Positions 38,138 to 42,586 of a DNA stretch of 64,000 nucleotides are shown piece after piece. The notes under the pieces are model-generated. The model searched no databases and was not told where the DNA came from. It saw nothing but the letters and a program-made list of their open reading frames with translations. The DNA is taken from the NCBI GenBank assembly GCA_016875395.1, contig VGRF01000010.1, forward strand, positions 1 to 64,000, in the 5' to 3' direction. The DNA comes from Deltaproteobacteria bacterium. Lineage in GTDB: Bacteria > Myxococcota_A > UBA9160 > UBA6930. Position numbers and translations under genes: made by a program. How positions within the stretch are numbered: the stretch's first letter is position 1; every line of letters starts with the position of its first letter.

Positions 38138-39070
38138 TCAGTGTGCGCGGCGGCGCGCCCAGAGTCCGGCGAGGGAAGCCGCGGCTCCCAGAGCGAACGT
38201 CGACGGCTCAGGCACGAACTGGTTGTCGACGATGTTCGCGCTCACGGAGTGCAGCGTGTAGCCGGCGGGGAGGTCGAACACGGGGCCCGTCGTGGGGAAC
38301 TGGACGGTCGCGCTGAAGTCCGCGTCGCCGAGCGAAGCCACATCCGTACGGTCGTTCGCATCGGCTGGCGTGCCGCCGACCGACGCCGCCGACCTTGCCC
38401 CGGCGATCGCGAAGACGTGAACGCTGAGCGCCTGGTTGACGGGGAGCATCAGGAACTGGCTCTTCACCGCCGCGTGAACCTGCGCGCCCCCCTGGTAGAG
38501 ACTGAGGAAAAGGCCGTCCACGGTCTCGGTTACGACACCGTTCTGCTGGCGGCGGATGATCTCGCCGTACCCCACATCGATCCCGTTGATCTCGATCTGA
38601 AAGAAGAAATCGGCGTTCGAGCTCGAACTCGAAGTGAGCGGACCGTTCAGGTCGAAGAACGACGTGAGCGTCGATAACAGGCCCGAGATTTGAAGGTTGA
38701 GCGCCGCCAGCACCGGTGCCGTGGAACCCGCCGGCCCGAGCACGACGAAGTCGTCATAGGTCCACTCGGCAAACGCCTGCGCACTACGAACGACCGTTGT
38801 CGGCTGTTTAACAAAAAAGCCGAAGGTCGAGCTCTGGGCGTCCAGCCGCATCACGCCGGGCCCGGAACTCGCCGACGCGGCCTCCTGGACCTCCAGCTCG
38901 CCGACGGAGGAGCTGGGCGGGCTGCAGCTCGACGTGGCGGAGAAGTTCGACGTGTCCTGCACGGTCGGACCGTTGCATCCGACGCCGGCCAGAAACAAAG
39001 GCGTGGCGCCCGCCGCCGAGGCGAGCAGCGCCGCGGTCGCCAGGGTCACGAGGCTTGCTCGACACCGCAT
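38138..39070 (-). CDS. PEP-CTERM sorting-signal protein
   Basis: A 310-residue secreted protein. The signal peptide is about 1-22 (SLVTLATAALLASAAGA). The mature part is rich in Ser, Thr and Gly with predicted beta structure, and has no recognised domain. The C-terminus VPEPSTFALGAAASLAGLWARRR is a full PEP-CTERM signal: the VPEP motif, a hydrophobic helix and Arg residues. It implies an exosortase elsewhere and surface or extracellular polymer deposition. The start is ATG at 39070; GC is slightly lower than in the neighbours. Confidence 0.85.
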   Translation of the reverse strand: MRCRASLVTLATAALLASAAGATPLFLAGVGCNGPTVQDTSNFSATSSCSPPSSSVGELEVQEAASASSGPGVMRLDAQSSTFGFFVKQPTTVVRSAQAFAEWTYDDFVVLGPAGSTAPVLAALNLQISGLLSTLTSFFDLNGPLTSSSSSNADFFFQIEINGIDVGYGEIIRRQQNGVVTETVDGLFLSLYQGGAQVHAAVKSQFLMLPVNQALSVHVFAIAGARSAASVGGTPADANDRTDVASLGDADFSATVQFPTTGPVFDLPAGYTLHSVSANIVDNQFVPEPSTFALGAAASLAGLWARRRAH

Positions 39071-39220
39071 TGAGCCGATCCTCCAGCGCCCTCGGTAGTG
39101 GTCGCGCGAGGCTCGTGGTGGCACGATAATTTTTGGCGATCGCGCAAGAAACCCCTACTGCCTATCTCGCGCACTGCGCGGGTACATTTGAGACGATGCG
39201 TCCGAGCTCGAGGAGACCCA

Positions 39221-39499: not shown

Positions 39500-41110
39500 T
39501 CAGATCTTCCGCACCACGTCCGGGAAGGTCTTCCACACGGGCACGCCGCAGAAGTGGTCGCCCTCGGTGCAGCGCGGCGAGACGAGACCGCTGCGCACGC
39601 TGCACGGCGGGCCGACGTGACGCGTCAGCTCGGGATGCACCGCGGCCACCTGCGCGATCTCGTCCATCGAGGCGTCGAAGATCTCGCGCTGCGCGTTGAA
39701 GCACGTGCGCATCGTCCACTTGTGCAGCAGGTGCAGCAGCGAGCCGCTCTCTTCGAAGCGCACCGCGAGCGCGTTCGGCAGCACGTAGAGCGCGAGCTGC
39801 GGCGAGACGCCGAGCGCGACGAGCTGCGCGCGCGCGTGCCACTGCGCCTCGACCGTCTCGCGGAAGACGGCACGCGAGGCGGGATCGCTCGCGATCAGGC
39901 CCGGCTCGATCACGTCGACTCGCGCGGACACGACGCGCGAGAGCAGTGGACGCGAGCCGGGCACCATGCGGTGGCGCTGGTCCTGCGAGTCCGCCGTGTG
40001 CGAGAGCTTCTTGCGGAACGTGTAGTGCGCGTGATTCAGCGCGCGCATCAGCGGGCTGTGCACGCCCACGTTCAGCGTGTCGAGGCGATACTTGTTACGG
40101 GCGGGATCGAGCACCAGCGCGAGCGCTTCCGCGTCGGCGAGATCGGGCCGGCCGAGCACGTTGCGCACCGCGCTCGCGACGGACGCCGGCCCGTTCACGC
40201 CGTAGTCGACGAGCCGCGCGCTGCGGCCGTTCAGCGATTTGTCGAACGCCTCGATCCAGACGGGGTCGACCGGCCGCGTCTCGACGCGGCTCTCGGGCAG
40301 CTCGGCTTCCGCGAGCTCACCCTCGCCGATCTCGTCGAAGAAGCCCGGATCGAACGCGCGCACGGCGGCGACCATCTTGCCGACGACGTCCCGCGCTTCC
40401 TCGGGCACGTCGCTCGCGAGGGCCATGCGCTGCAGGCGATGCAGCGTGATGCCCGAGACCGTGTAGACGAGCGCGGTGTGGCAGGCGAGCGGGATCACGT
40501 AGCGCGCCGTCTCGATCGACTTCTTCTCGGCCTCGCGCCGCACGCTGCGCCCGAACGCCTTGTTCTGGCGCTGCTTCAGCCGCCAAAGCTCGGTGAGGAT
40601 CTCCATCACGACGGGCTTCAGGCGCTCCGTCAGCTCGCGGTAAGCGCGCCAAGCATCCGCGACGCTGCGCTCGTAGATCGCGCGCGCCTCGCCCGCGAGC
40701 GCCGGCGGAACGTGCGCGCGGATCTCGTCGAGGCGCACGTAGCGCTGGCTCTGCTGCTCGCTGTTGTAGAACGGGAAGGAGTGCAGCAGCGACCACACCA
40801 GCTGGCGCGACACGCCCTCGAGCCCGAACTCGAACGTCGCGTGCTGGAAGACGGTGTGGTGCCCGCCCTGATAAGTGAGCGCGCCGATGCGCCCGCGCTG
40901 CTCGGGCGTGATCTCGTCGGCGCCGATCACGCGGGGGGAGTAACAAGTGCGCGCCGCGGCGATCGCGTCGTCGTAGGGCGCGTCGAACCAGTTGCGCAGG
41001 CGCACCTGTGCGCCGCCATCGAGCACCGCGTCCTGCGTGCTGTGCGCCCCTGCCGCCACGGCTTCCCCCTGAGCGGGCGAAACTTCGCACCGGCTCGCCC
41101 GCCGCACCAT
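39500..41110 (-). CDS. thyX: Tandem FAD-dependent thymidylate synthase (ThyX) with split signature
   Basis: Makes dTMP from dUMP with a reduced flavin and methylene-tetrahydrofolate. The 536-residue product is about twice a normal ThyX and holds two ThyX-like halves. Half 1 (about 35-260) has GGHHTVFQHATFEF, SRQLVWSLLHS, then NSEQQSQRY (116-124) but not RHR. Half 2 (about 285-530) has RHR (379-381), HAHYTFRKKL and RTCFNAQREIF but not the NExSxR part. Together they make one full RHR...NExSxRY signature. The start used is ATG at 41110, and the N-terminal about 30 residues look non-homologous, so the true start may be later. No thyA was seen. Confidence 0.85.
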   Translation of the reverse strand: MVRRASRCEVSPAQGEAVAAGAHSTQDAVLDGGAQVRLRNWFDAPYDDAIAAARTCYSPRVIGADEITPEQRGRIGALTYQGGHHTVFQHATFEFGLEGVSRQLVWSLLHSFPFYNSEQQSQRYVRLDEIRAHVPPALAGEARAIYERSVADAWRAYRELTERLKPVVMEILTELWRLKQRQNKAFGRSVRREAEKKSIETARYVIPLACHTALVYTVSGITLHRLQRMALASDVPEEARDVVGKMVAAVRAFDPGFFDEIGEGELAEAELPESRVETRPVDPVWIEAFDKSLNGRSARLVDYGVNGPASVASAVRNVLGRPDLADAEALALVLDPARNKYRLDTLNVGVHSPLMRALNHAHYTFRKKLSHTADSQDQRHRMVPGSRPLLSRVVSARVDVIEPGLIASDPASRAVFRETVEAQWHARAQLVALGVSPQLALYVLPNALAVRFEESGSLLHLLHKWTMRTCFNAQREIFDASMDEIAQVAAVHPELTRHVGPPCSVRSGLVSPRCTEGDHFCGVPVWKTFPDVVRKI

Positions 41111-41155: not shown

Positions 41156-41590
41156 ATGGCAGGCTGGATCTGGGTCGCGGGTGGTCTCCTTCTACTCGGG
41201 GCCGAGGCGCTCACGCCGGGCGGCTTCTTCATCATGTTCTTCGGCTTCGGCGCGATTGTGACGGGCGCCGCCGCGGCGAGCGGCCTCGTGACCGGCGTCT
41301 CCGCCCAGTGGCTGCTCTTCACCGTGTCGTCGATCGCGGGCCTGCTGCTGTTCCGCGGCAAGCTACTCGCGCGGATGTCGCCGACGGGCCCAGGGCCGCA
41401 GGTCGACACGATGGTGGGGGAGATCGGGCGAACTCTCGAGGACATCGCGCCGCGCGCCGTCGGTCGCGTCTCGCTGCGCGGCACGTCCTGGGAAGCCCGC
41501 AACGAGAGCGATGCGCCCCTCGCGGCGAACCAACGCTGCCGCGTGGTGCGCGTGTCGGGTCTTCAGCTCGGCGTCGTCCCCGAGTCCTGA
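41156..41590 (+). CDS. NfeD-family membrane protein (short form)
   Basis: A 144-residue protein with two or three transmembrane segments (WVAGGLLLLGAEAL, FFGFGAIVTGAAAASGL, WLLFTVSSIAGLLLF) and a C-terminal OB-fold (MVGEIGRTLEDIAP, then GTSWEARNESDAPLAANQRCRVV). Short NfeD proteins pair with SPFH/stomatin proteins to organise membranes. The gene downstream here is exactly such a protein, 60 nt away. ATG at 41156. Confidence 0.87.
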   Translation: MAGWIWVAGGLLLLGAEALTPGGFFIMFFGFGAIVTGAAAASGLVTGVSAQWLLFTVSSIAGLLLFRGKLLARMSPTGPGPQVDTMVGEIGRTLEDIAPRAVGRVSLRGTSWEARNESDAPLAANQRCRVVRVSGLQLGVVPES

Positions 41591-41650
41591 CTTCTGATTT
41601 CCGGTTCCCGCGGCGCGCGCCCTTCGGCCCGCGTGGCAGAAGGAGAGTGC

Positions 41651-42586
41651 ATGGAAGGCGGATTCGTGATCGTCGTGCTGTTCGCGATCATCGCGCTGAT
41701 CGTGATCGCGAAGTCTGCGGTCGTGGTGCCGCAGCAGAGCGCTTACGTCGTCGAGCGCCTCGGCCGTTTCAGCGGAATCCTCGACGCGGGCTTCCACATC
41801 CTGCTGCCCTTCGTCGACGTGATCCGCTATCGGCACTCGCTGAAGGAAAACGCCGTCGACATTCCCGCGCAGGTCTGCATCACGCGCGACAACGTCCAGG
41901 TCGGCGTCGACGGCGTGCTCTATCTGAAGGTGCTGAACCCTGAGCGCGCGTCGTACGGAATTCAGGACTACCTGTTCGCGATCGCGCAGCTGGCGCAGAC
42001 GACCCTGCGCTCGGAGGTCGGCAAGATCGATCTCGACCGCACGTTCGAGGAGCGCACCAACATCAACACCGCGCTGGTGACCGAGCTCGACAAGGCGAGC
42101 GAGCCGTGGGGCGTGAAGGTGCTGCGCTACGAGATCAAGAACATCACGCCGCCCTCGGACGTGCTCGCCGCGATGGAGAAGCAGATGCGCGCCGAGCGCG
42201 AGAAGCGCGCGGTGATTCTCACCTCCGAAGGCCAGCGCGACGCCGCGATCAACAACGCCGAGGGCGAGAAGCAGCAGACGATCAAGGCCTCCGAAGCGCG
42301 CAAGCAGCAGCAGATCAACGAGGCCGAAGGCGAGGCGTCGGCGATTCTCGCGGTGGCAACCGCGACGGCGGCGGGAATTCGCAGTGTCGCCGAAGCGAGC
42401 CAAGCTGCGGGCGGGCGCGAGGCGATCCAGCTGCGCGTTGCAGAGCAGTACATCGGGGAGTTCGGCAAGGTGATCAACCAGGCGAACACGATCATCCTGC
42501 CCGCAAACCTCTCCGACGTGGCCTCGATGATCACGACCGCGATGTCGCTGATCGGGCAGCAGCCGAAGCCGCCGGCGCAGAGCTAG
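41651..42586 (+). CDS. SPFH/stomatin-family membrane protein (paraslipin-like)
   Basis: A 311-residue protein with one N-terminal transmembrane segment (about 5-22), an SPFH domain (about 22-180, VPQQSAYVVERLGRFSGIL) and a long Ala/Glu/Gln-rich coiled coil (about 180-240), matching QmcA and paraslipins. It probably forms ring-like oligomers that scaffold membrane proteases or microdomains with the NfeD partner just upstream. ATG at 41651 follows AGGAGAG at the right spacing; an in-frame codon at 41633 is less likely. Confidence 0.9.
   Translation: MEGGFVIVVLFAIIALIVIAKSAVVVPQQSAYVVERLGRFSGILDAGFHILLPFVDVIRYRHSLKENAVDIPAQVCITRDNVQVGVDGVLYLKVLNPERASYGIQDYLFAIAQLAQTTLRSEVGKIDLDRTFEERTNINTALVTELDKASEPWGVKVLRYEIKNITPPSDVLAAMEKQMRAEREKRAVILTSEGQRDAAINNAEGEKQQTIKASEARKQQQINEAEGEASAILAVATATAAGIRSVAEASQAAGGREAIQLRVAEQYIGEFGKVINQANTIILPANLSDVASMITTAMSLIGQQPKPPAQS

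Follow-up and report, generated by a model that had tools for sequence, protein, structure and literature searches.

The flavin-dependent thymidylate synthase of the cell that carries the analysed window (the whole stretch of 64,000 nucleotides, from a 4.5-Mb draft genome of 96 contigs that is 96% complete) is very probably a pseudo-dimer derived from a duplicated and fused thyX gene, with the active site divided between the two halves of the chain. The 536-residue open reading frame is a fusion of two ThyX domains, both of which score above the PF02511 (Thy1) cut-off of 24.8 bits (Table 1), and the frame as a whole also passes the NCBIfam thyX equivalog model (TIGR02170; 91.5 against a cut-off of 87.9). 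Its start codon may lie up to ~30 codons further downstream, where conservation across the family begins. An AlphaFold model of the chain, made with a 72-member alignment, has a mean pLDDT of 89 and a pTM of 0.88, and when this model was used as a Foldseek query the top matches were ThyX crystal structures (TM ~0.7 by target length); in the model both halves adopt the ThyX fold. No PDB chain covering both halves in tandem was found, all of the matched chains being single-domain ThyX proteins of 217-270 residues, and no Rfam match was found near the gene.

Table 1. Features of the tandem ThyX gene, with positions in the window, and weak ThyA-family matches in genomes that carry a tandem ThyX (genome:contig:positions). 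Subunit roles and ligand contacts are predicted from homology; T. maritima numbering is given for the equivalent residues.
Feature	Position	Strand	Evidence or remark
Tandem ThyX gene, 536 aa	39500..41110	(-)	PF02511 twice, NCBIfam thyX, AlphaFold, Foldseek
Half 1, residues 46-255, ThyX domain with B- and C-subunit roles	40346..40975	(-)	PF02511 104.6 bits; aligns with M. tuberculosis ThyX
HHTVFQH, residues 84-90, equivalent to T. maritima H53-x-T55-x-x-E58-H59, B role	40841..40861	(-)	H84, T86 and H90 invariant in 84/84
L109-H110-S111, at the place of the normal RHR, no Arg	40778..40786	(-)	Relatives and profile alignment
SEQQSQRY, residues 117-124, C-role dUMP-binding loop	40739..40762	(-)	S121 = S88, R123 = R90, Y124 = Y91
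R203, equivalent to T. maritima R147, half 1 only	40502..40504	(-)	R in half 1 of 41/41 diverse tandems
A230 of half 1, where catalytic Arg174 would stand	40421..40423	(-)	Alignments including 41 diverse tandems
Half 2, residues 299-494, ThyX domain with A-subunit role	39629..40216	(-)	PF02511 62 bits; aligns with C. glutamicum ThyX
RHR, residues 379-381, equivalent to R78-H79-R80, FAD/dUMP-binding, A role, half 2 only	39968..39976	(-)	84/84 close relatives, 41/41 diverse tandems
R468, equivalent to T. maritima R174, dUMP-activating, half 2 only	39707..39709	(-)	84/84, 41/41, profile alignment
C470, two residues after catalytic R468	39701-39703	(-)	With the tail Cys, predicted four-Cys metal site
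C-terminal extension, residues 498-536, with C503, C514, H519 and C521	39503..39619	(-)	Cys in 84/84 close relatives
Weak ThyA-family match	G003:C242:19279-19659		
Weak ThyA-family match	G012:C456:13839-14183		
Weak ThyA-family match	G019:C319:2816-3202		
Weak ThyA-family match	G021:C285:15890-16285		
Weak ThyA-family match	G048:C146:6842-7219		

The two halves carry different parts of the ThyX signature. The first-pass annotation had described half 1 as keeping NSEQQSQRY without an RHR, and the half does read SRQLVWSLLHSFPFYNSEQQSQRY, with no RHR. S121 and R123 of its loop are invariant in all 84 close relatives and Y124 is retained in 83, the remaining one having Phe; profile alignment with PDB entries matches half 1 to the SQRYV loop of the M. 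tuberculosis enzyme. Half 2 was likewise described correctly as possessing the RHR and lacking NExSxR, since it contains a single RHR and no [N/E][E/Q]xSxRY. The position of R147 is occupied in half 2 by L441, and among the commonest residues listed there for the diverse tandems no Arg occurs.

The identity of the half-2 RHR follows from its alignment on the canonical RHR of C. glutamicum ThyX (3GE9; profile alignment, E 3e-9), from its predicted location in the AlphaFold secondary structure at the C-terminal end of the helix that follows a strand, which is the proper place of an RHR, and from the invariance of the tripeptide and its surrounding motif in all 84 close relatives. A different reading, in which these residues are a chance RH within a shifted ExSxRY loop and RKK 366-368 is the true RHR equivalent, was rejected because residue 366 varies (A/R/L/V) while 379-381 does not, and because the landing on the 3GE9 RHR and the order of strand and helix both fit the assignment given here. 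With a profile built from single ThyX proteins only (Myxococcota and T. maritima), the score of the tandem was too low for the motif region to be aligned, and global hhalign placed parts of half 1 wrongly; PDB profile alignments and distant tandems were used instead.

This division of motifs is the rule of a large family. RHR and Arg174 are separated from the SxR(Y) loop and Arg147 in the same manner in 84/84 close relatives, with the retained residues essentially invariant. Among 41 diverse tandems from remote families of the Myxococcota and Acidobacteriota, RHR and R174 are confined to half 2, and S88, R90 and R147 are present in half 1, without exception; the full [EQ]xSxR[YF] pattern occurs in half 1 of 40 of these proteins and in half 2 of none, and at the H53 position five have Asp and one has Arg. 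A normal ThyX had been expected to hold both parts in one chain, and RHR and ExSxRY do occur together in each of the 31 single-domain proteins compared. As neither half of the window's protein combines RHR and NExSxRY within one domain, it is filed as a fused, split-motif variant and not as a canonical ThyX. In a phylogenetic tree the first halves, the second halves and the single ThyX proteins form three groups with no mixing (support of 90 for the half-2 group and a weak 41 for the half-1 group), the pattern expected from a single ancient duplication and fusion. Searches of viral contigs found no tandem ThyX relatives.

The active sites of canonical ThyX lie between three subunits (PMC5954106, PMC3498832). 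In the M. tuberculosis enzyme, subunit A gives RHR95-97 and Arg199, subunit B gives Ser71 and Arg190, and subunit C gives Arg87, Ser105, Arg107 and the lid residue Tyr108 (PMC6514825); in our alignment, Arg199, Ser105, Arg107 and Tyr108 correspond to T. maritima R174, S88, R90 and Y91. R174 activates dUMP (PMC8316439) and H53 is supplied by a third monomer (PMC11940539). In the tandem, half 2 holds all of the A residues, and half 1 holds the C residues along with H53/T55 from the B set. Because RHR and Arg174 come from A and the S/R/Y loop comes from C in the solved enzymes, half 2 appears to have specialised into the A role and half 1 into the B/C roles. The initial proposal of complementary active-site parts in the two halves is thus supported, these parts being invariant and matching the published subunit roles (PMC6514825). 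Taken across both halves, R78, H79, R80, S88, R90, Y91, R147, R174 and H53 are all present, and N163/R165 are missing in the window's subtype. We infer from homology that the RHR of half 2 meets the SQRY of half 1 in one site.

The proposed scenario starts from an ancestral thyX that underwent duplication and fusion, after which each copy would have shed the part of the site that the other retained. Half 2 would play the role of subunit A, its RHR holding the flavin and its Arg174 equivalent activating dUMP. Half 1 would play the roles of subunits B and C: its H53/T55 helix would sit at the pocket for flavin and folate, and its SxRY loop would bind dUMP and close over it. A pair of chains would pack as a pseudo-222 tetramer in which half 2 occupies positions A and D, and half 1 positions B and C. 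This arrangement is predicted to leave two hybrid sites complete and the other two dead, devoid of anything essential; were the half-2 domains at A and C instead, there would be no complete sites. We infer that the tandem assembles in this way, that it has this number of sites and that it is catalytically active. A thymidylate synthase whose hybrid sites form otherwise, either inside a single chain or in some larger complex, seems improbable. The four-Cys extension of the window's subtype could make new contacts, but both halves keep the ThyX fold and the placement of A in half 2, with B and C in half 1, is one distribution that allows complete sites in a 222 pseudo-tetramer; furthermore, as the canonical site needs three subunits (PMC5954106, PMC6514825), one two-domain chain is not expected to suffice.

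The genomic context indicates that the window's gene is very likely the thymidylate synthase of its cell. The first-pass annotation had proposed a search of the genome for another thyA or thyX, and none was found: the genome yielded no second Thy1 match, no ThyA, no DHFR_1 and no TK1-type thymidine kinase, absences that are not absolute because the genomes are draft MAGs. Absence of DHFR_1 is common in ThyX users. Of 61 near relatives, 41 carry the tandem (one copy being cut by a contig end) and only one of these, G021, has an intact ThyA, which is present in 18 of the 20 relatives that lack the tandem. Across 191 Myxococcota, 56 genomes carry a tandem (truncated at a contig end in one of them), 40 have a single ThyX and 76 have ThyA; two of the 56 carriers possess ThyA (G021 and G091) and none a single ThyX, and 114 of the 135 genomes without a tandem have one or the other. 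The three enzymes are almost mutually exclusive in these genomes, with a Fisher p of 9e-13 for exclusion between tandem and ThyA that ignores shared ancestry. About 60 of 119 sampled Acidobacteriota have a tandem (counted as two adjacent matches in one frame), and none of the 28 tandem genomes of Acidobacteriota type that were tested yielded another Thy1 or an intact ThyA; in a published table, six of six Acidobacteria are entered with ThyX and without ThyA (PMC5954106). Tandem ThyX is usually the sole probable thymidylate synthase of its carriers, many of which are soil and sediment bacteria. The tandem of genome G091 (L157) has a very long branch and a half-1 loop decayed to EKSGRP, as expected once the intact ThyA in the same genome relieves the tandem; it serves as a natural test case for relaxed constraint. 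The ThyA family also gave weak, incomplete matches (profile positions about 92-229) in several tandem-ThyX genomes, within open reading frames of ~465-613 residues that encode distant ThyA-fold proteins (Table 1).

These distributions also bear on whether the tandem might be a degenerate ThyX paralogue without activity, serving a regulatory or nucleotide-binding function while dTMP is made by an unknown enzyme. Either half alone does lack essential residues, and N163/R165 have gone from both halves in the window's subtype. However, the catalytic residues are invariant over two phyla, yet divided between the halves, ThyA, single ThyX and TK1-type kinase were all missing from the window's genome, and the near exclusion of ThyA and single ThyX, like the decay of the loop where ThyA is present, is contrary to an inactive protein, so that this explanation is quite unlikely. 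An artefact of assembly or annotation, whether two neighbouring thyX copies joined in error or a chimera, was considered in view of the 96-contig draft and is already refuted, as the same fused open frame of ~480-600 residues, free of stops, recurs in many tens of independent genomes from two phyla.

In the window's subtype the cysteines of the C-terminal extension have an invariant spacing, C503-x10-C514-x6-C521, and together with C470 they are present in all 84 close relatives and in 12 of the 41 diverse tandems; C470 is absent from the other 29. The co-occurrence of four Cys near the catalytic Arg suggests a metal site, possibly Zn or Fe-S. We know of no four-Cys site of this kind described for ThyX. 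Neither half of this subtype retains the FAD-contacting N163/R165 (S219/I221 and S457/L459 in the window's protein), which implies that flavin binding differs in detail and that the mode of cofactor binding has been remodelled. A speculative and rather doubtful extension is that the enzyme is an obligate half-of-the-sites one: its dead pockets would have taken on a new task, and the four-Cys metal or iron-sulphur site would tune the flavin or feed it electrons.

Canonical ThyX (T. maritima TM0449 and the M. tuberculosis enzyme; PF02511, TIGR02170) shares with the tandem the fold of both halves, the same main catalytic residues in total and the same genomic role in replacing ThyA. It is, however, a chain of ~220 residues in which every motif is present and which assembles into a homotetramer with four equivalent sites, whereas the tandem has two domains per chain, each with a non-overlapping part. 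The nearest solved relative of half 2 by profile is the atypical C. glutamicum ThyX (3FNN, 3GE9). Unlike the tandem, this protein is a single domain with both motifs; its PDB title states that thymidylate synthesis does not require it. Thermus thermophilus Thy1 (6J61) resembles the tandem in bearing a C-terminal addition but has a single ThyX domain. Histidine biosynthetic genes such as hisA took the same route of fused paralogous modules that diverge (PMC7284861); unlike in that elongation, divergence in the tandem would divide a single multi-subunit active site between the modules. Some single-domain ThyX proteins of other Myxococcota/Acidobacteriota contain an insert between RHR and NExSxRY (L153:1-2712 (+), L154 and L189:511-2586 (-)); the insert contains an intein splicing domain in L153, gives a weaker intein match together with an HNH endonuclease in L189, and was recognised from its layout only in L154.

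No account of a ThyX protein with two domains, whether called tandem, fused or duplicated, or of how such halves share the work, was found in the openly accessible literature. Databases recognise the tandem proteins as ThyX, and automatic annotation labels them as plain ThyX, which should serve as a warning. If the proposed division is correct, the three-subunit active site of an essential enzyme has been divided by duplication and fusion into specialised, non-interchangeable halves, and this divided ThyX is present in about half of the Acidobacteriota sampled and in many of the Myxococcota. Residues that are genetically inseparable in a homotetramer are already apart here, and the tandem thus offers a ready test of what each subunit contributes; ThyX is a drug target, and the tandem may help to assign these contributions.

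The gene is flanked on the divergent side by genes for an NfeD-like protein and then an SPFH/band 7 protein (41156-42586 (+)), a usual membrane-microdomain pair. Downstream of thyX, 38138-39124 (-) encodes a protein that has a signal-like stretch at its N-terminus and ends in a PEP-CTERM sorting motif.
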